The notes beneath the pieces were generated by a model, which was not told the DNA's origin, did no database searches, and saw only the letters and a program-made list of their open reading frames with translations. Below are positions 23,684 to 37,405 of a stretch of 64,000 nt of DNA, in pieces. Positions within the stretch are counted from its first letter, which is position 1, and each line of letters begins with the position of its first letter. Position numbers and translations under genes: made by a program. Origin of the DNA: Anderseniella sp. (lineage in GTDB: Bacteria > Pseudomonadota > Alphaproteobacteria > Rhizobiales > Aestuariivirgaceae); the NCBI GenBank assembly GCA_030626025.1, contig DAOUPT010000004.1, positions 1 through 64,000 of the forward strand. The letters run 5' to 3'.

Positions 23684-25576
23684 TCAATGGGCTTTTGCCG
23701 CTTTGTCACCATCGGGATCAGCTTTTTCAAAGCCGTGTAATACTTGCTGTGGCGCGTTTTCGGCGGCTTCAATTTCTTCCATTGAGCGATGACAGGAGAT
23801 GAAATGATCGGGATGTGGTTCCTGTGTCGGGGCAGTTTCAAGATTGCAGGTTCCATCTATTGCTATCGGACAACGATTATAGAACGGGCAACCGGTGTCA
23901 GTGATTTCAACACCGCGGGCAATCCCCACTGCCATTTCGCGTTTTTGCATGGTTTCTTCCAGCCAGCCAACACGCAGTTCAGGTACTGATGAAATCAACA
24001 GGCGCGTATAAGGATGATAAGGTGGGGCCAGCACATGGTCCACCGGTCCCTGTTCCACCACCCGACCAGCATAAAGCACAACGATCTCGTCTGCAAATGA
24101 CCCGACTGTTGAAAGATCATGTGAAATGAAGACAAAAGAAACACCAGTTTCGTCACGCAGCTTTTTCAACAGTTTAATAACATTGGAACTGACAATGGAA
24201 TCAAGCGCTGAAGTCACCTCATCACACAACATTATTTCTGGTTTTGCCGCCAGTGCCCGGGCCAAGTTTACCCGTTGTTTCTGGCCGCCAGACAGTTCTG
24301 AGGGATAGCGGTTTTCAAACTCAACCGGCAGTTCGACCAAACGAAGCAACTTGGCAACTTCCTCGCGCCGTTCCTTGCCTTTTATGCCGCGGTAAAACTC
24401 AATCGGGCGACCAAGAATATCGCTGATCATCTGGCGCGGGTTGAGGGCGGTATCTGCCATCTGATAAACAAACTGAACTTTTTGAAGCTCCTCGGCCGAC
24501 CTGTGTTTCAAATCAGCTTCCAGTTTTTTCCCATCAAGGAAAACTTCGCCCTTGGCCGCCGGCAGCAATCCTGCAATAACTCGAGCCAGTGTGGATTTAC
24601 CGCAACCAGATTCGCCAATGACACCGACAACATGGCTGTTTTTGATTTTAACATTGATATCGCGCAACACAGTAATCACCGGTTTACCGTTAACAATGCC
24701 GCCATAACCGGCGGTCATGTTTTTGACTTCTATGTTGGGAATATCCCGGGAGTGCTCTTCATCCAATTTCTCGCCCATGCCAGCTTTTGGCGTTGGCTTG
24801 ACTGCCGCCATTAGACGTTTGGTATAGGGGTGTTTGGGGTTATTGATAATCTGCTCGGTCGGTCCCTGTTCCTGTACTTCACCAGAATAAAGAACAACAA
24901 TATGGTCGGCAACCTGAGCCACCACCGCCAAATCATGGGTCACGTAAATAGCCGCTGAGCCTTCTTCCTGAATAACTTTCTTGAAGGCTTTGAGCACTTC
25001 AATTTGCGTGGTTACATCAAGGGCTGTTGTCGGCTCATCAAGGACCAATAGATCAGGGCTTGAAACCAGCGCCATCGCCGCCATAAGGCGTTGCAATTGA
25101 CCGCCGGAAACCTGATGAGGGTAGCGTCGACCAAGCCGTTCAGGGTCGGGTAATTCAAGAGCATGATAGAGGGCAACCGCACGTCGGTTGGCTTCTTCCT
25201 GGGTTAGAGTACCGTGCAGCACCGCCGCTTCGGTTACCTGCTCACCAATGGTGATGGCCGGGTTGAAGGTCGCTGCTGCACTTTGCGCCAGATAGGCAAC
25301 CTTGTTGCCACGTATGCTGCGCTGGTCCTGCGGGTCCATGGACAAGACGTCCTTGCCATGCAGGCGCACTTCGCCGCCGGGAAATTCCAGACCCGGTCTG
25401 CAATAGGCCATGGTTGCCATTGATATGGTTGATTTGCCGGAACCGGATTCGCCAATCAGGGCGACCACCTGTCCAGCTTTTACATTGAAACTCACACCCT
25501 TGACGATGGGAATGGGTGTGCCATCTTCCTTGCGGGCCTGGATTTGCAGGTTGTCTATCTCGAATAATTCACTCAT
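23684..25576 (-). CDS. dipeptide/oligopeptide-type ABC transporter, fused double ATPase
   Basis: A 630-residue protein carrying two complete ABC domains, equivalent to DppD and DppF fused. Domain 1 has Walker A GESGSGKST, signature VSGGQLQR and Walker B LLVLDEPTTALD. Domain 2 has GESGCGKST, LSGGQKQRVNLARAL and IMLCDEVTSALD. Each domain is followed by the oligopeptide-type C-terminal extension; the second has the cysteine cluster CPFYNRCPIAIDGTC, which in relatives binds an Fe-S cluster. It sits 14 bases after the second permease. Confidence 0.94.
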   Translation of the reverse strand: MSELFEIDNLQIQARKEDGTPIPIVKGVSFNVKAGQVVALIGESGSGKSTISMATMAYCRPGLEFPGGEVRLHGKDVLSMDPQDQRSIRGNKVAYLAQSAAATFNPAITIGEQVTEAAVLHGTLTQEEANRRAVALYHALELPDPERLGRRYPHQVSGGQLQRLMAAMALVSSPDLLVLDEPTTALDVTTQIEVLKAFKKVIQEEGSAAIYVTHDLAVVAQVADHIVVLYSGEVQEQGPTEQIINNPKHPYTKRLMAAVKPTPKAGMGEKLDEEHSRDIPNIEVKNMTAGYGGIVNGKPVITVLRDINVKIKNSHVVGVIGESGCGKSTLARVIAGLLPAAKGEVFLDGKKLEADLKHRSAEELQKVQFVYQMADTALNPRQMISDILGRPIEFYRGIKGKERREEVAKLLRLVELPVEFENRYPSELSGGQKQRVNLARALAAKPEIMLCDEVTSALDSIVSSNVIKLLKKLRDETGVSFVFISHDLSTVGSFADEIVVLYAGRVVEQGPVDHVLAPPYHPYTRLLISSVPELRVGWLEETMQKREMAVGIARGVEITDTGCPFYNRCPIAIDGTCNLETAPTQEPHPDHFISCHRSMEEIEAAENAPQQVLHGFEKADPDGDKAAKAH

Positions 25577-25590
25577 CTGACCATCTTCCC

Positions 25591-26529
25591 CTAAATCATT
25601 TTCTTGGCAAGATCGCCACCGGACTTGGCCGAAATATCATCAACGATGAGGTTGATAGCAATAGTGAAAGAGGCAATGGCAAGGGCTGGCCAAATTGGTG
25701 CCAGTATGCCCCATCCTTCAGCGTATTGCATCGCTTCGAGGTTGCCACGCACCATGGAACCCCAGTCAGCATTTGGCGGTTGAATGCCAAGGCCCAAAAA
25801 GCTCAGTGACGATATGAACAGCACCACGAACACCAGTCGTAAGCCGAAGTCAGTGGCCAGTGGCATGGCCGCATTGGGCAACACTTCCCTGAAGATGATC
25901 CACCAGATGGTTTCGCCACGCGCCTGCGCCGATTCCACATAATCCATCACCATGATTTCCTGGCCATAGGCCCGAGCAATCCGGTAGACACTGGAAGCAT
26001 AAATGATCGCAGCAGTGCCGATCAGGATCGGGATTGAGGAGCCAAGTGCCACCACGATCAACAGACCCAGCATAATCGTTGGCAGGGATAAAATTGCGTC
26101 ATTGATGCGGCTGAGGATCATATCGATCCAGCCTTTTTTGACCGCCGCAGCGATACCGGCCGTAACGCCCATAAGGTAGGCAAGCAGCGTTGCAAAAAAC
26201 GAAATGCCAACGGTCATGCGAGCACCCCACAAGACGCGTGACAGGATATCACGTTCATTGTTATCAGAACCAAGCCAGTGAGTGCCTCCGCTATCAATCT
26301 CGGCACCCGGCGGCAGGTAACTGTCCATGTCAAGAATTTCAGCCTGATCATAGGGCGCAATCCATGGCCCTATGACGGCAATAATCACCCAGAAAGCAAC
26401 GACGATGACACCGAGTTTGCCGGTCCATGTCAGTTTCAGTTTTTTCTTTGGCGGTGCATCGGGCAATTCGTCATAAATCGAGGTTTCCTGATCGCTTTCT
26501 GATGCTGCAGCTTGAGTTGTATCTGTCAT
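25591..26529 (-). CDS. DppC-type ABC transporter permease
   Basis: A 312-residue inner-membrane permease. An N-terminal cytosolic tail is followed by the first helix (LGVIVVAFWVIIAVIGPWIA) and the OppC_N region ending in HWLGSDNNERDILSRVLWGAR. A BPD_transp_1 domain contains the EAA loop ESAQARGETIWWIIFREVLPN that contacts the ATPase. It is 9 bases downstream of the other permease in the operon. Confidence 0.93.
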   Translation of the reverse strand: MTDTTQAAASESDQETSIYDELPDAPPKKKLKLTWTGKLGVIVVAFWVIIAVIGPWIAPYDQAEILDMDSYLPPGAEIDSGGTHWLGSDNNERDILSRVLWGARMTVGISFFATLLAYLMGVTAGIAAAVKKGWIDMILSRINDAILSLPTIMLGLLIVVALGSSIPILIGTAAIIYASSVYRIARAYGQEIMVMDYVESAQARGETIWWIIFREVLPNAAMPLATDFGLRLVFVVLFISSLSFLGLGIQPPNADWGSMVRGNLEAMQYAEGWGILAPIWPALAIASFTIAINLIVDDISAKSGGDLAKKMI

Positions 26530-26538
26530 GATCAGGTC

Positions 26539-27486
26539 CTATTTCGGGTTGCGCAGCCGTGGGTTGGCCAAAATGGCCGCCACATCCGCCATAATAATGA
26601 GTACTACATATGTGCCGCAAAAGATCATCGCGCAGGCCTGAACCAGCGGCAGGTCACGGGTTTGCACTCCGTCAATCATCAGCTTTGCCAGGCCGGGGTA
26701 AGCAAAGATCGTCTCAACAATCACCACGCCAGAGACCAGATAGGCCAGATTGAGCGCAATCACATTAACGATCGGACCGATGGTGTTGAAAAACGCATGG
26801 CGCAGAATAATCCGTTTGCGCCGCACGCCTTTTAGAATAGCCATTTCGATGTAAGGCGAGTTCATCACATTAAGAATACCGGCTCTGGTCATGCGGATCA
26901 TCTGCGCGGCTACCACAATGACCAGCACAATCAGCGGCATGGCAATACCACGGGCCATTTGCCAAAAGGTATTTTCAGGGGCCACACTGGCAATTGCCGG
27001 TAACCAACCCAATTGTACAGCCAGGATCAAAACGGCAAAGGTTGCAATGAAAAAGTCGGGAACCGATATCAGCGCCAGTGTGCCAAATGTCAGGGAACGA
27101 TCGATCCATGTACCCGGGTACATGGCAGCCAACAAGCCCAATGCCACCGACAACGGCACAGAAATAAGGGCAACAAGCCCGGCCAGAAACATGGTGTTTC
27201 CAAGTCGCCCGGCTATCAGGTCGTAAATTTTGGCACCACCGGCCTTGGAGACGCCCAGATCGCCGGTCACCATGTTGGCCAACCAACCGAAATATTGAAA
27301 AATCAGCGGTTGATCCAGGCCGTTTGCAGCACGATACGCCGCCAATGTTTCAGGCGTTGCTGCTTGGCCAAGAACAATTGAAGCCACATCACCTGGCAAC
27401 AGTGATGTCATGATAAAGACCAGCACTGACACCACCCACAAGGTGACCAGTCCGATAAGAATACGTTGAATGACCATGCGTTGCAT
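26539..27486 (-). CDS. DppB-type ABC transporter permease
   Basis: A 315-residue permease with the usual first helix (ILIGLVTLWVVSVLVFIMT), the segment LPGDVASIVLGQAATPETLAA typical of DppB/OppB, and five further helices with the EAA loop EMAILKGVRRKRIILRHAFFN. The start MQRMVIQR at 27486 has GGGAGG upstream; the open extension to 27552 is not supported. A 12-bp stem-loop lies between it and the binding-protein gene. Confidence 0.93.
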   Translation of the reverse strand: MQRMVIQRILIGLVTLWVVSVLVFIMTSLLPGDVASIVLGQAATPETLAAYRAANGLDQPLIFQYFGWLANMVTGDLGVSKAGGAKIYDLIAGRLGNTMFLAGLVALISVPLSVALGLLAAMYPGTWIDRSLTFGTLALISVPDFFIATFAVLILAVQLGWLPAIASVAPENTFWQMARGIAMPLIVLVIVVAAQMIRMTRAGILNVMNSPYIEMAILKGVRRKRIILRHAFFNTIGPIVNVIALNLAYLVSGVVIVETIFAYPGLAKLMIDGVQTRDLPLVQACAMIFCGTYVVLIIMADVAAILANPRLRNPK

Positions 27487-27561
27487 GATTTGAACCTCCC
27501 ACCTCAAATTAGAGGAAACTGTTCCGCCACCTTGCTCTTTTTTTGTTGGCAAGTTTTAAAT

Positions 27562-27610: not shown

Positions 27611-29254
27611 TTAGACGTCTGTGCGCCAGGCAAACTCGGGCCATTCATAGCCACCAAGTGAACCAAGAGGCATACGTCCGATACCTTCAACTTTGTCGGA
27701 CTTGGCATCAACGTAGTTACGGTGAGCCGGAATGACCATACCGCTTGGTGGATGATCATCGCTGCCAACAGAGATGATTTTCTGCATTTCACAATACATC
27801 TCATGGCGTTTTGCAGCATCTTTAACACCGCGGCTTTCCACCAGCAACTTGCCAAGACGTTCGTTTTTCCACAGCGTGTCATTCCAGGGTGCATCAGGTG
27901 CAAAAGCCAGATTCATCATAACATTTGCTGTTGGACGCATGTTCCAAGTCACCACATTAAGTGGTGTCTTCATCCATACAGCGCCCCAGTAACCATCATT
28001 CGGCACTTTCTTGATTTTGAGGTCAAGGCCGATTTTACCGGCTTCGCGCTGGGCCAGCAAACAGATGTCTGTCATACCCGGAGCCACTTCAGCAACATTC
28101 AACTCAGCTGATGTGATGCCAGATTTTTTCAGATGGAATTTGGCCTTGTCCAGATCATGGGTGCGCTGTGCCAATTCTGAACAATGATCGGCGCCATAAG
28201 CGATATTGATCGGATGGTCATTACCGACAGTACCCTGACCCTTGAGGATCGACTTGACGATTTTCTTGCGACGTTGGATATGTTGAAGAGCCAGCACGAA
28301 ATCGCGATTGTTACCGGGCGATGTGTTGGTCATGGCGCAAATGCCGAAATAGGCACCCGAAGCAACTGACCAGATACCAACACCAGGTGTTGATTCAACT
28401 TTTTTGATCGCTTTTGGATTAAGGCCCTGCATTAAATCAATATCACCGGACAGCAAGGCACTCAAACGCGCTACTGGGTCGGTAATAGCTGTAACTTCGA
28501 TTAGATCAACATTACCTCCATCACGCCAATAATGTTCATTACGCACACAGATAGAACGCACACCCGGATTGAACTCTGTCATCTTGTAAGGGCCGGTGCC
28601 GTTAGCTTTCTGAAATTCCGTGGTGCCATCCTTGATGATTTTAAAGTGTGGCGTACCTAGAATAACAGGCAGGTCGGCATTGGGACCTTTCATGATTGCC
28701 TTGACCGTGTGACTGTCGACCTTCTTCCATTCCTTAACATCCGCCACCAGTGATTTGGCTTTCGATGTGGATTTTTCGCCGTAGTGACGGCTCATGGTGT
28801 AGATCACATCATCGGCGGTAAAATTGCTACCATCGTGAAATTTTACACCCTTGCGCAGTTTGAATGTCCACTCGGTATTATCAGGATTGGCAGAATATTC
28901 TTCAGCAAGCTCAGGCCGCGTCGACAAATCATCATTAATTTGTGTCAGGCTGTTGTAGACTGAACGGCCGCGCGAGTAGTCAATTGTCGAAGTATTCAGT
29001 CCCGGGTCCAGCGTATCAGACGGTCCATGCAGGTCGGACGCAAATTTTAGCTTGCCGCCCTTTTTAGGTGTTGCAGCCAGCGCGGTTTTTGCTGATGAAA
29101 CAATTGAGCCTGCTGCTGCAATTGTTGCACCGCTGGCCATCAGCCACGTCATAACCTCGCGCCGGGTTGCCCCGCGCTTCAGTCCGGTTTCAACAATTTC
29201 ACGGTCTGCGCCCGACAAACTGTCTATTGTTGGCAAATTTCTGGAATCTGTCAT
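27611..29254 (-). CDS. SBP_bac_5 substrate-binding protein with Tat-type signal
   Basis: A 547-residue periplasmic binding protein of the oligopeptide/nickel family. A long N-terminal tail leads to a twin-arginine motif (TRREVMTWLM) and hydrophobic core, ending near KTALAA, which indicates export by Tat. The mature part has the cluster 5 pattern: LDPGLNTSTIDYSRGRSVYNSL, WTFKLRKGVKFHDG, and GTGPYKMTEF. First gene of the transporter operon and divergent from a lysR gene. The ligand is not predictable; this family includes peptide, opine and amine binders. Confidence 0.92.
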   Translation of the reverse strand: MTDSRNLPTIDSLSGADREIVETGLKRGATRREVMTWLMASGATIAAAGSIVSSAKTALAATPKKGGKLKFASDLHGPSDTLDPGLNTSTIDYSRGRSVYNSLTQINDDLSTRPELAEEYSANPDNTEWTFKLRKGVKFHDGSNFTADDVIYTMSRHYGEKSTSKAKSLVADVKEWKKVDSHTVKAIMKGPNADLPVILGTPHFKIIKDGTTEFQKANGTGPYKMTEFNPGVRSICVRNEHYWRDGGNVDLIEVTAITDPVARLSALLSGDIDLMQGLNPKAIKKVESTPGVGIWSVASGAYFGICAMTNTSPGNNRDFVLALQHIQRRKKIVKSILKGQGTVGNDHPINIAYGADHCSELAQRTHDLDKAKFHLKKSGITSAELNVAEVAPGMTDICLLAQREAGKIGLDLKIKKVPNDGYWGAVWMKTPLNVVTWNMRPTANVMMNLAFAPDAPWNDTLWKNERLGKLLVESRGVKDAAKRHEMYCEMQKIISVGSDDHPPSGMVIPAHRNYVDAKSDKVEGIGRMPLGSLGGYEWPEFAWRTDV

Positions 29255-29382: not shown

Positions 29383-30324
29383 ATGCTCAGACGACAGCTT
29401 CCATCACCCAATTCCCTGTTTACATTTGAAGCGGTGGCGCGACTGGGCAGCTTTTCAGCTGCGGCCAACGAGCTAAATGTTACCCAGCCGGCAATCAGCC
29501 GCTCGATCAGTTCATTTGAATTGCACTTGGGTTACACATTATTCAAACGTCATGGCCGCTGGATTGAATTAACGCAAAATGGCGACAAACTTTTTCGGGC
29601 AACTTCGACGGCGTTTAACACGGTTATGGATTCGCTGCGCGAAATTGATCATCGCGAAGACAATCAGGAAGCGGTGTCAATTTCGATGTCGCCAGTGGCC
29701 GTCAATTATTGGTTTATTCCGCGAATGGCAGCGTTCAGAGAAAAATTTCCGCGCGTCAGTTTAACATTCCGGGAATACTCCAAAGACAGTGAAGCCCTGC
29801 TGCGCGACGTTGATCTTAATATCCGGCTCTCCAACCCCAAAGACGCCGACATGCACCGCTGGCCTTTTGCTGATGAGCGAATCATCGCGCTGTGCTCACC
29901 CGAGTACTTGGCAACCAATGGAGCACTGGATAAAATCAGAAATAATCAGTCCCATTGTTTTCTTGAATGGCGCCAGCAGCGCTATGGACTGGATGAATTT
30001 TTACATGTCACCGGATTACAAATGCCGCCAAATTCATCATTCACCAGATTTTCAGATTACTCCAGCGTACTTCAATCGGCTGTACAAGGCCACGGTATCG
30101 CACTGGCATGGGTAACAGAATGCTCAATGCAAATTATTGCTGGCACACTTGTTCCGGCCTGCGCTCAAGTGGTTAAAACCGGCAGACGATATCATATCCT
30201 TGCCTCAAACCTTAACCCCATGCGCCCGGTTGTTGAAGATATCCGGGACTGGCTGATCAGTGAAATGCGCAGTGATGAAAAAAAGATTACCACCATTCTC
30301 AAGGCAAATTGGGATTTGTTCTAG
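29383..30324 (+). CDS. LysR-family transcriptional regulator (GcvA-like)
   Basis: A 313-residue LysR protein with an N-terminal winged HTH (FEAVARLGSFSAAANELNVTQPAISRSISSFE) and a periplasmic-binding-protein-like effector domain. PSPNSLFTFEAVARLGSFS is typical of the GcvA-like subgroup. It diverges from the binding-protein gene across 128 bases, so it probably regulates the ABC transporter operon. The intergenic region is A/T-rich, as expected for a LysR target, but I cannot fix a site. Confidence 0.9.
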   Translation: MLRRQLPSPNSLFTFEAVARLGSFSAAANELNVTQPAISRSISSFELHLGYTLFKRHGRWIELTQNGDKLFRATSTAFNTVMDSLREIDHREDNQEAVSISMSPVAVNYWFIPRMAAFREKFPRVSLTFREYSKDSEALLRDVDLNIRLSNPKDADMHRWPFADERIIALCSPEYLATNGALDKIRNNQSHCFLEWRQQRYGLDEFLHVTGLQMPPNSSFTRFSDYSSVLQSAVQGHGIALAWVTECSMQIIAGTLVPACAQVVKTGRRYHILASNLNPMRPVVEDIRDWLISEMRSDEKKITTILKANWDLF

Positions 30325-30464: not shown

Positions 30465-31502
30465 CTAAACAGTTCCAACCCTGCGGTCTTTGGATGGGGT
30501 CGAGGCAAAGTAGTCTTTGTAGCGTCGCGAGAAATGTGATTGGGATGAAAACCCGGCAGCAATTGATATTTGCAAAAGTGACATGCCGGTGTGAAAGACC
30601 AGATATCGAGCCCGGTTTAAGCGCAACTCCAAATAATAACGATGAAGTGTTTTGCGCCGGTGTTTGGTAAAAAGCCGCTCCAACTGGCGCCGGGAGAGAC
30701 CTATATGGTTGGAGATTTGTTTTGATGACAGGGGGTTTTCTACATTGGCCATCATCAATTCAATTGCTTTTGCCAGTTTGGGTGAACGCCTTTGGGCCAG
30801 TTGCAGTTCAGCCTTGCGCTGCATCTCGCCCGGGGTCCGTGACGGGGAATGGATAAATTGTTCGGCGATTGCTGTAACAAGATACTCATCATTGGTCCGG
30901 GCAATCCAGCCCAGCATCATGTCCAGTGCCGCTATGCCGCCAGCCGCTGTAATTCTTTTTCGACTCATTTCATATATACCACCTGTCAGGATTGCTTTTG
31001 GGTGATTTTCGCGAAAGCTCTCTTCGTTTTCCCAGTGAATGGTACAACGGCAATCATCAAGCAGGCCGGCATTTGCCAATATTTCAGGCCCGGTGCTGAT
31101 GGCACCCATTGTACAGCCCCGACTGGCCTGCTTGCGCAACCAGTCGAGCAAGCGGGTTGAATTGGCCATTTTGCGATCGAAAAACCCGGCGCAAACAATA
31201 ATTAGATCGTACCCGGTTGGGCGCTCGGCAATTGAATAATCAGCCGGTATCGAAAACCCGCTGCTTGATCCCGGCACCTGACCGTCAACCGATAAAAGCG
31301 AAATGTCATACAACTGACTGCCAGCCAACCGGTTGGCAACATGCATCGGCTCGACCGTTGCACTGAAGCCGATCATCGAGAACCCGGGAACAAGCAGCAA
31401 CCCGACTTTTTGCGCCTCACTTTGGCTCACTTTTTGCGCCTCGCTTTGGCTCACTTTTTGCGCCTCGCTTTGGCTCGGTGATTTTACTTTCTGTAGCATC
31501 AT
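30465..31502 (-). CDS. GlxA/GbdR-type AraC regulator with DJ-1/PfpI domain
   Basis: A product of about 345 residues with an N-terminal class I glutamine-amidotransferase-like domain (VGLLLVPGFSMIGFSATVEPMHVANRLAG) and a C-terminal AraC double HTH (ISNHIGLSRRQLERLFTKH; ISIAAGFSSQSHFSRRYKDYF). This is the architecture of GbdR, CdhR and relatives that control glycine betaine, carnitine or arginine catabolism. It diverges from the dimethylglycine dehydrogenase-like operon and is its likely activator. Three in-frame 24-base repeats encode an N-terminal (SQSEAQKV)-type tail absent from typical members. The start is uncertain: MMLQKV near 31500 has no clear ribosome-binding site, and the frame is open further upstream. 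Confidence 0.88.
   Translation of the reverse strand: MMLQKVKSPSQSEAQKVSQSEAQKVSQSEAQKVGLLLVPGFSMIGFSATVEPMHVANRLAGSQLYDISLLSVDGQVPGSSSGFSIPADYSIAERPTGYDLIIVCAGFFDRKMANSTRLLDWLRKQASRGCTMGAISTGPEILANAGLLDDCRCTIHWENEESFRENHPKAILTGGIYEMSRKRITAAGGIAALDMMLGWIARTNDEYLVTAIAEQFIHSPSRTPGEMQRKAELQLAQRRSPKLAKAIELMMANVENPLSSKQISNHIGLSRRQLERLFTKHRRKTLHRYYLELRLNRARYLVFHTGMSLLQISIAAGFSSQSHFSRRYKDYFASTPSKDRRVGTV
31405..31476. repeat. three tandem 24-bp repeats in the regulator's 5' coding region
   Basis: Three consecutive 24-base units (31405-31428, 31429-31452, 31453-31476) differ at a single base. Each encodes eight residues (SQSEAQKV) in frame, so changes in copy number lengthen or shorten the N-terminal tail without shifting the frame. 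They lie within 110 bases of the divergent operon's start codon. Confidence 0.9.
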
Positions 31503-31585
31503 GTGAAAACATGAAACAAAATGTCGCAAAAATGCAAATAGAATTTTCAAAAATGAGCACACTAAATCAAAAAGGGAGTGGATTA

Positions 31586-34009
31586 GTGAAATCTCATGCA
31601 AGAGCGGTTGTCATCGGTGGTGGTGTCGTTGGGTGTTCGGTGTTGTATCATCTGGCCAAACTGGGTTGGAAAGATGTTGTTCTTCTGGAACGCGATGAAT
31701 TGACATCAGGCTCAACCTGGCACGCAGCCGGTGGCATGCATACGATTAACGGTGATCCCAACGTTGCCAAATTGCAGCAATATACTATCGACCTTTACAA
31801 GGAAATTGCTGAATTATCGGGTCAAGAAACCGGTGTGCATATGACCGGTGGTGTCATGCTGGCAGCTACTGAGGCACGGCTTGACTGGTTAAAAAGTCTG
31901 GTTTCCAAAGGTTCTTATCTGGGCATCAAGGCTGAAATCATTACTCCCGAAGAAGCTTTCGAGCTCATGCCGCTGCTTGATCCGTCACAATTTGCCGGCG
32001 CCATGCGCACCTATGTGGACGGCCACCTTGATCCGTCCGGTGTCACCCACGCCTTTGCCAAAGCAGCCCGCAAGCTTGGGGCAGAAATTGAACGTTTCAC
32101 CAAGGTGGAAAGTCTTGCGCAAACCAGCGATGGTGCCTGGAAAGTCACAACCAACAAGGGCGATATTATTGCCGACCATGTGGTTAATGCCGGTGGACTT
32201 TGGGCCCGCGAAGTGGGTCGCATGGTCGGGCTGGAACTGCCGGTTCTGGCCATGGAGCACATGTATCTAATTACCGAAGATATGCCGGAAGTCATTGAAT
32301 GGAACGAGAAAACCGGCAAGGAAGTTATCCATGTCGTTGATTTTGATGGCGAGCTTTATTTGCGCCAGGAGCGCAACGGCATGTTGATGGGGACATATGA
32401 GCAGGCCTGCAAACCCTGGTCCCCCAAGACAACTCCGTGGGATTTTGGCCATGAGCTGCTTGAACCTGACCTGGACCGGATTGCACCCTCTCTGGAAGTT
32501 GGCTTTGAACACTTCCCGGCTTTTCAAAACGCCGGTATCAAGCAGATCATCAATGGCCCTTTTACTTTTGCTCCTGATGGCAATCCGCTGGTCGGGCCGG
32601 TGCGGGGCCTGCAAAACTACTGGTGTGCATGTGCTGTCATGGCCGGGTTCTCACAAGGTGGCGGGGTTGGGCTGGCACTGGCCAACTGGATGATTGATGG
32701 TGATCCGGGCATGGATATCTGGGCGATGGATGTGGCCCGTTATGGTGACTGGGCGACACCTGAATACACCAGCAAGAAGGTTCAGGAAAATTACAAGCGC
32801 CGCTTTTCAATTCGTTTTCCCAATGAAACGCTACCGGCGGGCCGCCCGCTTAAAACCACACCAATCTATGGAAAACTCAAAGCGGCCGGAGCGCAATTTA
32901 ATGATGCCTGGGGGCTGGAAAGCGCCATGTGGTATGCGCCCGAGGGTGTAAAAGACGAGTTCTCGTGGTATCGCTCTACAGATTTTGAGCATATTGCAGC
33001 CGAAGTTAAAGCGGTGCGCGAAAGTGTCGGCCTGATCGAAATCTCCTCCTTTGCCAATTATACCGTAACCGGCGAGGATGCCCACGACTGGCTCGATACC
33101 ATGCTGGCCTGCAAGATGCCAAAAGAGGGCCGCATGACCCTGGCACCGATGCTGAAAGAAGATGGCAAAGTCATTGGTGATTTTACCCTTGCCAATCTCG
33201 GCGATGATACGTTTTTTATCGCCGGATCGGGCATCGCCGAAGACTATCACATGCGCTGGTTTGAACAGCATCTGCCTAATGATGGATCGGTGCAAGTTGT
33301 TGAACATGGTGCCAGTATGACCGGTGTCTCTATTGCCGGACCAAACGCCCGCAAGGTTCTGCAAGCTGTTACTGATCATGATGTCTCTCATGAAAATTTC
33401 AAATTCATGGCAATTGAAGAAATCAATATTGGCATGGCATCAGCCCTTGTCGGACGGGTTACATTTACCGGTGATCTTGGTTATGAAATCTGGTGTGAGC
33501 CGGAATATCTCAATCATATTTTCGACGAATTGATGGCCGCTGGTAAAGACTACGACATCAGATTGTTTGGCTCTCGCGCCCTTAATTCACTGCGCTTTGA
33601 AAAAGGATATGGTAGTTGGGGCAGTGAGTATCGGCCTGTTTATGATCCGGTCGAATGCGGTCTCGACAGATTTGTCTGCGCCGACAAGGAAGCTGACTTT
33701 ATTGGCAAGGCCGGGCTTGCTGACAACAAGCAAAATCAAAAGTACCGCCTGCGTACTTTTATTGTCGAAACCGACAACGCCGATACCGTTGCCAATGAAC
33801 CGATTTACTTCAATGATGAAGTCAAGGGCTGGGTAACCTCCGGCGGCTACGCGCACAATTGCGGCATATCAGTTGCCCTTGGTTATGTTCCAGCAGAGCT
33901 TGCTGACCAACATGACGGCTGGGAGATCGAAATAATCGGCAAACGTCAAAAAGCTGTTTTGCAACAGGAAGCGCTTTTTGATCCTGATAATTTAAAAATG
34001 CGGAGTTAA
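31586..34009 (+). CDS. dimethylglycine dehydrogenase-like FAD/GcvT fusion protein
   Basis: An 807-residue protein. The N-terminal DAO domain opens with the FAD motif VVIGGGVVGCSVLYHLA and ELTSGSTWHAAGG. A linker (FAO_M type) follows, then a C-terminal GcvT folate domain (about residues 430-800: GVSIAGPNARKVLQ, TFTGDLGYEIW, SLRFEKGYG). These enzymes demethylate dimethylglycine or sarcosine and pass formaldehyde to tetrahydrofolate. The GTG at 31586 has GGGAG 7 bases upstream and begins just before the FAD motif, so it is preferred over the open extension to 31478. First gene of an operon with MttB-like and DddP-like genes. Confidence 0.9.
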   Translation: MKSHARAVVIGGGVVGCSVLYHLAKLGWKDVVLLERDELTSGSTWHAAGGMHTINGDPNVAKLQQYTIDLYKEIAELSGQETGVHMTGGVMLAATEARLDWLKSLVSKGSYLGIKAEIITPEEAFELMPLLDPSQFAGAMRTYVDGHLDPSGVTHAFAKAARKLGAEIERFTKVESLAQTSDGAWKVTTNKGDIIADHVVNAGGLWAREVGRMVGLELPVLAMEHMYLITEDMPEVIEWNEKTGKEVIHVVDFDGELYLRQERNGMLMGTYEQACKPWSPKTTPWDFGHELLEPDLDRIAPSLEVGFEHFPAFQNAGIKQIINGPFTFAPDGNPLVGPVRGLQNYWCACAVMAGFSQGGGVGLALANWMIDGDPGMDIWAMDVARYGDWATPEYTSKKVQENYKRRFSIRFPNETLPAGRPLKTTPIYGKLKAAGAQFNDAWGLESAMWYAPEGVKDEFSWYRSTDFEHIAAEVKAVRESVGLIEISSFANYTVTGEDAHDWLDTMLACKMPKEGRMTLAPMLKEDGKVIGDFTLANLGDDTFFIAGSGIAEDYHMRWFEQHLPNDGSVQVVEHGASMTGVSIAGPNARKVLQAVTDHDVSHENFKFMAIEEINIGMASALVGRVTFTGDLGYEIWCEPEYLNHIFDELMAAGKDYDIRLFGSRALNSLRFEKGYGSWGSEYRPVYDPVECGLDRFVCADKEADFIGKAGLADNKQNQKYRLRTFIVETDNADTVANEPIYFNDEVKGWVTSGGYAHNCGISVALGYVPAELADQHDGWEIEIIGKRQKAVLQQEALFDPDNLKMRS

Positions 34010-35584: not shown

Positions 35585-36844
35585 ATGCTTAAAGTCTTTT
35601 CCGATGAGCGAAAAAAAGAATACCCAAACTTTGAGGGTGCTGACAAACCGTTGAGAAATCCGATCAAGGCTGAGACCGTTGCAAAGGTACGCGCCTATCG
35701 TCATGACCGGATCAAGCAAAAAGTTATTGAGCATGATTGCGCCGCCATCCTTCTCTATGATCCGTTGAATATCCGCTATGCGACAGACTGTTCTGACATG
35801 CAGGTCTGGACCATGCACAATGCATCGCGTTACACCATTGTTTGCGCTGATGGCCACACCATTTGTTTTGAATACAAGAACGCCATGCATCTGGCAGAAG
35901 GCCTTGACCGGGTCAATGAAGTGCGCCCGGCAGTTAGCTGGTTTTATTTTGGCGCCGGTCCTCTGGTTGATGAAAAGACCAAAATCTGGGCTGCCGAGAT
36001 TGCCGATGTTGTGCGCCAGCATGGCGGTGGCAATATGCGTCTGGCTGTTGACAAGATGGAACCTGGCGGGGTTGATGCTTTGCGGGCGCACGGCATCGAG
36101 ATTGTCGAAGGGCAGGAACTGACTGAAACCGCGAGGATGATTAAGTCGCCTGATGAAATCGAAATTATGCGCTGGACCATCAGGGTTTGTGAGCAGGGCA
36201 TGTGGCGAATGCGTGAAAACTCCGTTGCCGGTAAATCCGAAAATGAAATCTGGGCTGAGTTACATTATGAAAACATTCGCAATGGTGGCGAATGGATTGA
36301 AACCCGTTTGCTGGCCATTGGCGAGAGGACCAATCCATGGTTTCAGGAATGTTCAGACCATGTGGGCAAGGATGGCGATCTTTTATCTTTTGATACCGAC
36401 CTTGTCGGGCCCTATGGCTATTGTTCAGATATTTCGCGCTCATGGACCATCGGCCTGGTGCCTCCAACCAATGAACAGCGGGTGATTTACAATTTTGCCA
36501 AATCTGAAATTGAACACAACATGGCTTTGATACAACCGGGTATGAGCTTTGCCGAGTTTTCTGAAAAATCCATGCGTATACCTGAACATTATCACGATAA
36601 CCGCTATTCATGCGCCTTTCATGGGGTTGGATTATGCGACGAATACCCTTCAGTTCCAACTCATGTGGATATGGCGTTGGGTAAAGGATATCCGGGAACC
36701 ATCGAAGAAGGCATGGTTTTATGTGTTGAAAGCTGCACCGGGCTGAACGGCGGGCGTGAATGTGTCAAGCTTGAGGTTCAAGTGCTGGTTACAGATAAAG
36801 GTGTGGTGCAGCTCGATACATTTCCATTTGAAGACTGGGGATAG
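35585..36844 (+). CDS. M24-fold protein resembling DMSP lyase DddP
   Basis: A 419-residue creatinase/prolidase-fold protein. An N-terminal domain holds LLYDPLNIRYATDCSDMQVW, and the C-terminal pita-bread domain holds NGGEWIETRLL, RTNPWFQEC and FDTDLVGPYGYCSDISRSW. All six DddP metal-ligand positions are present: Asp270, Asp272, Asp282, His346 (FHGVGL), Glu382 and Glu397 (KLE). From memory these segments match DddP more closely than creatinase or prolidase. DddP cleaves dimethylsulfoniopropionate to acrylate and DMS. Third gene of the operon, 29 bases after the MttB-like gene; it could act on DMSP or another onium compound. Confidence 0.72.
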   Translation: MLKVFSDERKKEYPNFEGADKPLRNPIKAETVAKVRAYRHDRIKQKVIEHDCAAILLYDPLNIRYATDCSDMQVWTMHNASRYTIVCADGHTICFEYKNAMHLAEGLDRVNEVRPAVSWFYFGAGPLVDEKTKIWAAEIADVVRQHGGGNMRLAVDKMEPGGVDALRAHGIEIVEGQELTETARMIKSPDEIEIMRWTIRVCEQGMWRMRENSVAGKSENEIWAELHYENIRNGGEWIETRLLAIGERTNPWFQECSDHVGKDGDLLSFDTDLVGPYGYCSDISRSWTIGLVPPTNEQRVIYNFAKSEIEHNMALIQPGMSFAEFSEKSMRIPEHYHDNRYSCAFHGVGLCDEYPSVPTHVDMALGKGYPGTIEEGMVLCVESCTGLNGGRECVKLEVQVLVTDKGVVQLDTFPFEDWG

Positions 36845-36989: not shown

Positions 36990-37016
36990 TTAGCACTCTC
37001 TATCTTTGAGTGCTAA
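36990..37016. promoter_or_regulatory. CIRCE element (HrcA operator)
   Basis: A perfect match to the CIRCE consensus: TTAGCACTC, nine bases, GAGTGCTAA. It begins 13 bases after the -10 box, the usual position for HrcA repression of groESL. Confidence 0.97.
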
Positions 37017-37109: not shown

Positions 37110-37397
37110 ATGAAGTTCCGCCCTTTACACGATCGCGTCGTTGTTCGTCGCATCGAGGAAGCAACAACCACTGCCGGTGGTATCATTATTCCAGACAACG
37201 CCCAGGAAAAACCAAGCCAGGGTACAATCATTTCTGTAGGCCCCGGTGCCCGCGGTGAAGACGGTGCTATTGTCGCTCTGGATGTTAAAGCAGGCGATAC
37301 TGTCCTGTTTGGCAAATGGTCAGGCAATGAAGTCAAGATTGACGGCGAAGACCTGTTGATCATGAAAGAATCAGACATCATGGGTGTTTTAGAATAG
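37110..37397 (+). CDS. groES: co-chaperonin GroES
   Basis: A 95-residue Cpn10 that caps the GroEL ring. [20 protein letters not shown] and the mobile loop [19 protein letters not shown] are diagnostic. ATG 37110 is preceded by TAGGAGA; the frame is open upstream to 37062 but homology starts here. It is controlled by CIRCE and followed, before groEL, by a stem-loop with a T6 run. Confidence 0.98.
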
Positions 37398-37405
37398 TTT
37401 TATTG

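Follow-up and report, generated by a model that had tools for sequence, protein, structure and literature searches.

DddP, a DMSP lyase of the M24 fold that forms DMS and acrylate, with two crystallised representatives (RlDddP, 4rzy; RdDddP, 4b28) and a curated model (NF043017), is the described enzyme closest to the protein considered here. Catalytic roles for its Tyr366 and Asp377, and a role in substrate contact for Trp95, are proposed in two papers (PMC4108388, PMC5395565). The latter further holds that DddP has lost peptidase activity through the exchange of two histidines conserved in M24 enzymes for Asp and Phe, describes RlDddP as not cleaving Val-Pro and, in a table, gives high Km values for DMSP (14-22 mM) for both DddP and DddQ (PMC5395565). 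The PF16867 'DMSP_lyase' cupins (DddQ/DddL type) have a fold unrelated to that of DddP-like proteins. The M24 fold itself is shared by creatinase, the ectoine hydrolase DoeA and prolidase, and the feeding of sarcosine demethylation by creatinase is well established. Betaine demethylation of the MttB/DMGDH type involves, to our knowledge, no M24 enzyme in any known pathway, and in the open-licence literature, which was partially covered, no report was found of a DddP-like enzyme together with MttB or DMGDH.

Here, we describe a gene for a DddP-like M24-fold protein from Anderseniella sp. that follows genes of these same two families within the window (the whole stretch of 64,000 nucleotides that was analysed, positions 1 to 64,000 of contig DAOUPT010000004.1). 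We draw a distinction between the family to which this protein belongs, which can be read directly from sequence and tree, and the reaction it may carry out, for which we tentatively propose the removal of nitrogen rather than sulfur.

A DddP-like protein in a separate clade

The 419-residue protein carries the Pfam domains M24 and Creatinase_N. In a phmmer search of the PDB it matched the two DddP structures (4b28, E-value 2e-105; 4rzy, 4.8e-105), as against 1.3e-13 for the next M24 protein and for the best solved M24 peptidase, a likeness to DddP far beyond chance, and it is 43-44% identical to the crystallised DddPs over about 390 residues. Its predicted structure (pLDDT 89, pTM 0.88) is also nearest to DddP, both in Foldseek (E-value about 1e-48; next 2e-23) and in fold comparison, where DddP reaches Z 43.2 with an rmsd of 2.2 across 398 residues and the next structure Z 32.3, with creatinase, DoeA and prolidase at Z 31-32 and 15-23% identity. 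Seven other M24 rows, among which there is no verified creatinase, fall outside the DddP-like family in the tree (support 100). Sequence, tree and predicted fold thus all mark the protein as DddP-like, and neither as a peptidase nor as a creatinase.

All six metal ligands of DddP, noted already in a sequence-only reading of this DNA, align with those of the crystallised enzyme (RlDddP/window protein: D295/D270, D297/D272, D307/D282, H371/H346, E406/E382 and E421/E397), and in the alignment the equivalents of Tyr366, Asp377 and Trp95 are Tyr341, Asp352 and Trp75. The two segments that the same reading had singled out as DddP-like, LLYDPLNIRYATD and RTNPWFQEC, are both present in the translation. 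Its use of the six ligands as an argument for a DMSP lyase does not survive comparison, as they occur in 86 of 89 aligned DddP-like rows, most of which lie outside the DddP clade. The Tyr366 and Asp377 equivalents are both kept in 84 of the 89, one or both being lost at loci L029, L033, L034 and L035 and in one of the two L101 copies. Since ligands and Tyr/Asp pair are common across the DddP-like family, these residues are not diagnostic of a DMSP lyase, and we rejected them as proof of that activity.

Where, then, does the protein stand relative to DddP proper? On the curated DddP model it scores 448.7 bits, below the cut-off of 600. In a 106-row tree, built by a quick method with SH-aLRT support only and containing neither the fungal DddPs nor the named Oceanimonas DddPs, it belongs to a clade of 36 rows (support 100; here the window clade), and the two crystallised DddPs lie in a separate clade of 32 rows (support 100). 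Both clades were recovered under a mixture model with 63 rows (window clade, 22 rows, support 100; DddP clade, 99). An AU test, in which the groups had been picked after the first tree, rejected nesting of the window clade with the crystallised DddP core (p-AU 0.00015) and was compatible with a grouping of the window clade and the whole DddP clade (p-AU 0.256), so that the former may be the sister of the latter.

Individual columns can be read in the same terms. The position of DddP A103 (Y83 in the window protein) is Ala in 19/19 core rows and 13/13 other DddP-clade rows, and Tyr in 36/36 window-clade rows and 25/28 other DddP-like rows, whereas that of W313 (T288) is Trp in the DddP core and Thr in all 36 window-clade rows but in none of the 28 other DddP-like rows; W197 stands where the core has C217. 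To judge from the sequence, T288 and Y83 may be pocket residues. At many of the differing columns the other DddP-like rows share the state of the window clade, a pattern suggesting that the derived state is that of the DddP core. We conclude that the window protein is a DddP-superfamily homologue in a separate clade and not DddP itself. The earlier description of a DddP-like DMSP lyase candidate is therefore sound in its first part (sequence, tree and fold) and unsupported, in the narrow sense, in its second (449 bits against 600, separate clade), and the phylogeny that it had called for sets the protein apart from the other M24 rows, as a DddP-like protein, and also outside the 32-row clade of DddP proper.

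The betaine-type operon and its recurrent neighbours

The gene array had been described as betaine-type, and this holds. The dddP-like gene is third in a tight array behind co-oriented DMGDH-like and MttB-like genes, with gaps of 4 nt (DMGDH-like/MttB-like) and 29 nt (MttB-like/DddP-like), and we assign it to a betaine-type N-demethylation operon whose co-transcription is predicted from these close, co-oriented genes (Table 1). The MttB-like frame is open without an in-frame TAG, and its closest solved structures are 4yyc, then 2qne and the glycine betaine methyltransferase 9yce. The same gene order occurs at L013 (where the DMGDH ORF is in two pieces) and L014, both of which also have the AraC-type and the LysR-type regulator; in the window the ORF of the former is divergent from, and overlaps, the DMGDH ORF. 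On the other side, the CIRCE element and groES/groEL mark a separate unit. No strong terminator was found directly 3' of the dddP-like gene, terminator-like sites being no commoner than in shuffled sequences.

Table 1. Features surrounding the dddP-like gene (positions in the window)
Feature	Position	Strand	Basis or remark
ABC permeases and fused double ATPase, oligopeptide/dipeptide type	23684..27552	-	
ABC solute-binding protein, family 5 (peptide type)	27611..29254	-	tied to the operon by position only
LysR-type regulator	29383..30324	+	GcvA-like, 196 bits (cut-off 288)
DJ-1/PfpI-AraC regulator, GbdR-like	30465..31601	-	299 bits (cut-off 480); start uncertain
DMGDH-like flavin/folate N-demethylase	31478..34009	+	Pfam DAO, FAO_M, GCV_T and GCV_T_C; start uncertain, the true one probably internal
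MttB-superfamily methyltransferase, 513 aa	34014..35555	+	Pfam MTTB
DddP-like M24-fold protein, clade 'W'	35585..36844	+	PDB search, Pfam, NCBIfam, tree, alignment, predicted structure
CIRCE inverted repeat	36990..37016		perfect, TTAGCACTC-N9-GAGTGCTAA; just 3' of the operon
groES	37110..37398		
groEL	37479 onward		

Neighbours were counted up to a distance of 8 kb with fixed score limits, and DMGDH, MttB, OYE-type and Rieske genes were taken as N-demethylases. By this measure an N-demethylase gene lies near 21 of the 36 window-clade loci (DMGDH 16, MttB 8, OYE 7, Rieske 3), 4/19 DddP-clade loci, 7/25 other DddP-like loci and 0/12 anchored loci of ordinary M24 controls (13 given). The 36 context loci comprise 34 rows of the tree clade and the near-copies L020 and L122, which had been thinned from the tree (the tree-clade rows L181 and L182 are without context), and they are not independent, L128-L131 and L120-L125 being groups of close relatives. 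At 15 of the 36 no demethylase was found within 8 kb (10 with full flanks, 5 with a short flank); among these are the Novosphingobium and Dongia groups, L120/L122/L125 and L136. The binomial odds of the DMGDH linkage are 3.5e-14 for 16/36 loci and 9e-7 for 6/11 lineages, or 3e-4 at a 10% background, values that are rough because gene density was taken from one genome and the lineages were drawn after the data had been seen.

In a DMGDH tree, from which pieces shorter than 650 aa were dropped (the split gene of L013, L130, L101 and L222), 24 of the 25 DMGDHs adjoining DddP-like genes form one subfamily, the exception being L113. Five of six other placed DMGDHs of the window genome fall outside it, and the branch also holds one window-genome paralogue (contig C104, beside an MttB gene). 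The sequence-only reading had offered either a new onium substrate or the parallel use of both osmolytes, and linkage to a single DMGDH subfamily fits the former better and the latter less well. The DddP-clade loci L143, L147 and L151 carry DMGDHs of this same subfamily, so this neighbour does not separate DddP from the window clade, and the partnership is either older than the clade split or crosses it. At L143 (4236-8041), the gene immediately after a DMGDH of the window's subfamily encodes a DddP that passes the curated cut-off with 867 bits.

Other neighbours are less frequent. A corrinoid protein and DUF1638 are encoded between the dddP-like gene and MttB at 3/36 loci (L103, by Pfam; L027 and L106, by relatives). 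A DddP-corrinoid fusion suggested by a single ORF of L106 was rejected, the first part being out of frame. Rieske, OYE, MR_MLE, MttB and GbdR neighbours, which could otherwise indicate the substrate, all score under their NCBIfam cut-offs. A proline-betaine pathway was considered for these neighbours and set aside: the Rieske protein of L133 is closest to carnitine monooxygenase, the OYE scores are under cut-off and the MR_MLE protein of L128 is closest to uncharacterised Roseobacter-group structures. Directly upstream of the dddP-like gene, L133 (3843-4640; with a Pfam scan for this locus only) and L136 (10660-11481) have a gene of a HalD-like 2-oxoglutarate/iron oxygenase family.

The PF16867 cupins occur at 11 of the 36 window-clade loci, often as tandem pairs, and, at the same limit, at 0/19 DddP-clade, 0/25 other DddP-like and 0/13 control loci. 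Their identity to one Rhodobacteraceae PF16867 protein is 24-29%, from which a DMSP function does not follow. Rhodobacteraceae-type genomes have a PF16867 match in 71 of 149 cases, and among 20 hand-picked PF16867 loci of this type 6 have DMGDH and 5 have DMGDH with Rieske (L214, L215, L216, L218 and L220, DddQ-type), the DMGDHs of such loci lying outside the DddP-linked subfamily. Two 'DMSP lyase' families of unrelated structure are thus found repeatedly next to N-demethylases. L218 and L220 also carry MR_MLE enzymes, those of L220 resembling cis-3-hydroxyproline dehydratase (under cut-off).

The window genome has 8 M24 genes, one of them DddP-like; no true DddP was found elsewhere in it (next NF043017 match 38 bits), nor any PF16867 cupin. 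Its acuI gene is over the cut-off, a DmdA-like gene reaches 372 bits (cut-off 410) and two corrinoid proteins are both under cut-off. There are three MttB-DMGDH pairs, the window's own counted; L251 (contig C104) and L252 (contig C57) are pairs with no DddP-like gene in the stretches fetched.

Possible reactions of the DddP-like protein

In light of this protein being DddP-like but not DddP, what might its role be? Our proposal, which we put at a little short of an even chance, is that it is a DddP-type dinuclear-metal eliminase in the catabolism of an N-methylated betaine. A betaine-type carboxylate would be bound at the two-metal centre formed by D270, D272, D282, H346, E382 and E397, Asp352 would abstract a proton, the onium head being surrounded by Tyr341 and Trp75, and an N-methylated amine would be eliminated, or the C-N bond of a betaine-like compound opened; MttB and the DMGDH-like protein would remove methyl groups from the substrate or its product. 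We infer that the reaction is an elimination in which nitrogen, and not sulfur, leaves, and we also infer the sequence of the steps. DddP-type chemistry is plausible because the active-site set is kept, and the proposal is favoured by the separate clade and its specific residues, the score below the curated cut-off, the recurrent N-demethylase neighbours, the GbdR-like regulator and the named carriers of the family (Novosphingobium, Sphingopyxis, Dongia and a groundwater MAG). It is weakened by the 15 demethylase-free loci, the DMGDHs of the DddP clade, the neighbours under cut-off and acuI.

This last gene fits the formation of acrylate from DMSP, and together with the DmdA-like gene it means that DMSP may be used. 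The protein could accordingly be a divergent DddP that works as a DMSP (or DMSOP) lyase and is co-transcribed with genes for glycine betaine demethylation since both osmolytes are met and taken up together. The entire DddP active-site set is kept, the identity to RdDddP is 44% over 390 residues, the predicted fold resembles DddP much more than any other (Z 43, next 32), a sister relation to the whole DddP clade is compatible with the AU test, and the bacterial and fungal DddPs tested cleave both DMSP and DMSOP according to PMC10686828. We nevertheless find this rather doubtful, given a score under the curated cut-off, a position outside the DddP clade, the change of fixed residues (A103, fixed in the DddP clade, to Y83; W313, fixed in the core, to T288), the non-marine relatives and the recurrent N-demethylase partners. 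Quite unlikely, in our view, is an M24 hydrolase of creatinase or prolidase type that would free sarcosine or dimethylglycine from an imported amide, peptide or guanidino compound, for DMGDH then to demethylate. The precedent of creatinase, the M24 fold, the rank of creatinase and prolidase as the next folds after DddP, and the peptide-type ABC transporter alongside (relatives of its solute-binding protein, at 90 bits or more, are close to 9/36 clade loci, the window counted) would all suit such an enzyme, yet the window protein keeps both the Asp (D352) and the Phe (F253, an assignment made in the present analysis) of the DddP-type replacement, along with the lyase pair Tyr/Asp.

Distribution and significance

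A DddP-like match at 1e-60 was found in 78 of 385 genomes of a class sample, with the curated cut-off passed in 12, and in 41 of 398 genomes of a phylum sample, with the cut-off passed in 17. The protein is found in 0/3 other genomes of the genus and its closest copy (G425, 89% identity) belongs to another family of the order, which indicates a patchy spread. Copies within the same family are at most 71% identical, and this difference from the 89% across families is a hint of horizontal transfer of the dddP-like gene.

A gene such as this one could be miscounted as producing DMS, the gas behind the smell of the sea. The window protein reaches the identity and coverage part of published survey thresholds (44% over 390 residues), as do 27/36 window-clade rows and 17/25 other DddP-like rows in a comparison against the two crystallised DddPs, and those thresholds would count the window gene as dddP. 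If nitrogen osmolytes are the substrates of these enzymes, counts of DMS potential are too high and betaine catabolism includes a step that has been overlooked. A broader reading, which we consider unlikely, is that the DddP-like clade consists of C-N lyases, the nitrogen counterparts of the DMSP lyase, with the DMSP activity of DddP a derived or side specialisation and the cupins part of the same pathway. Were it true, there would be an onium-lyase family older than DddP, with a quaternary or tertiary ammonium betaine as its target. The high Km values of DddP and DddQ for DMSP are a known puzzle that would be easier to understand if there had been an older native substrate.
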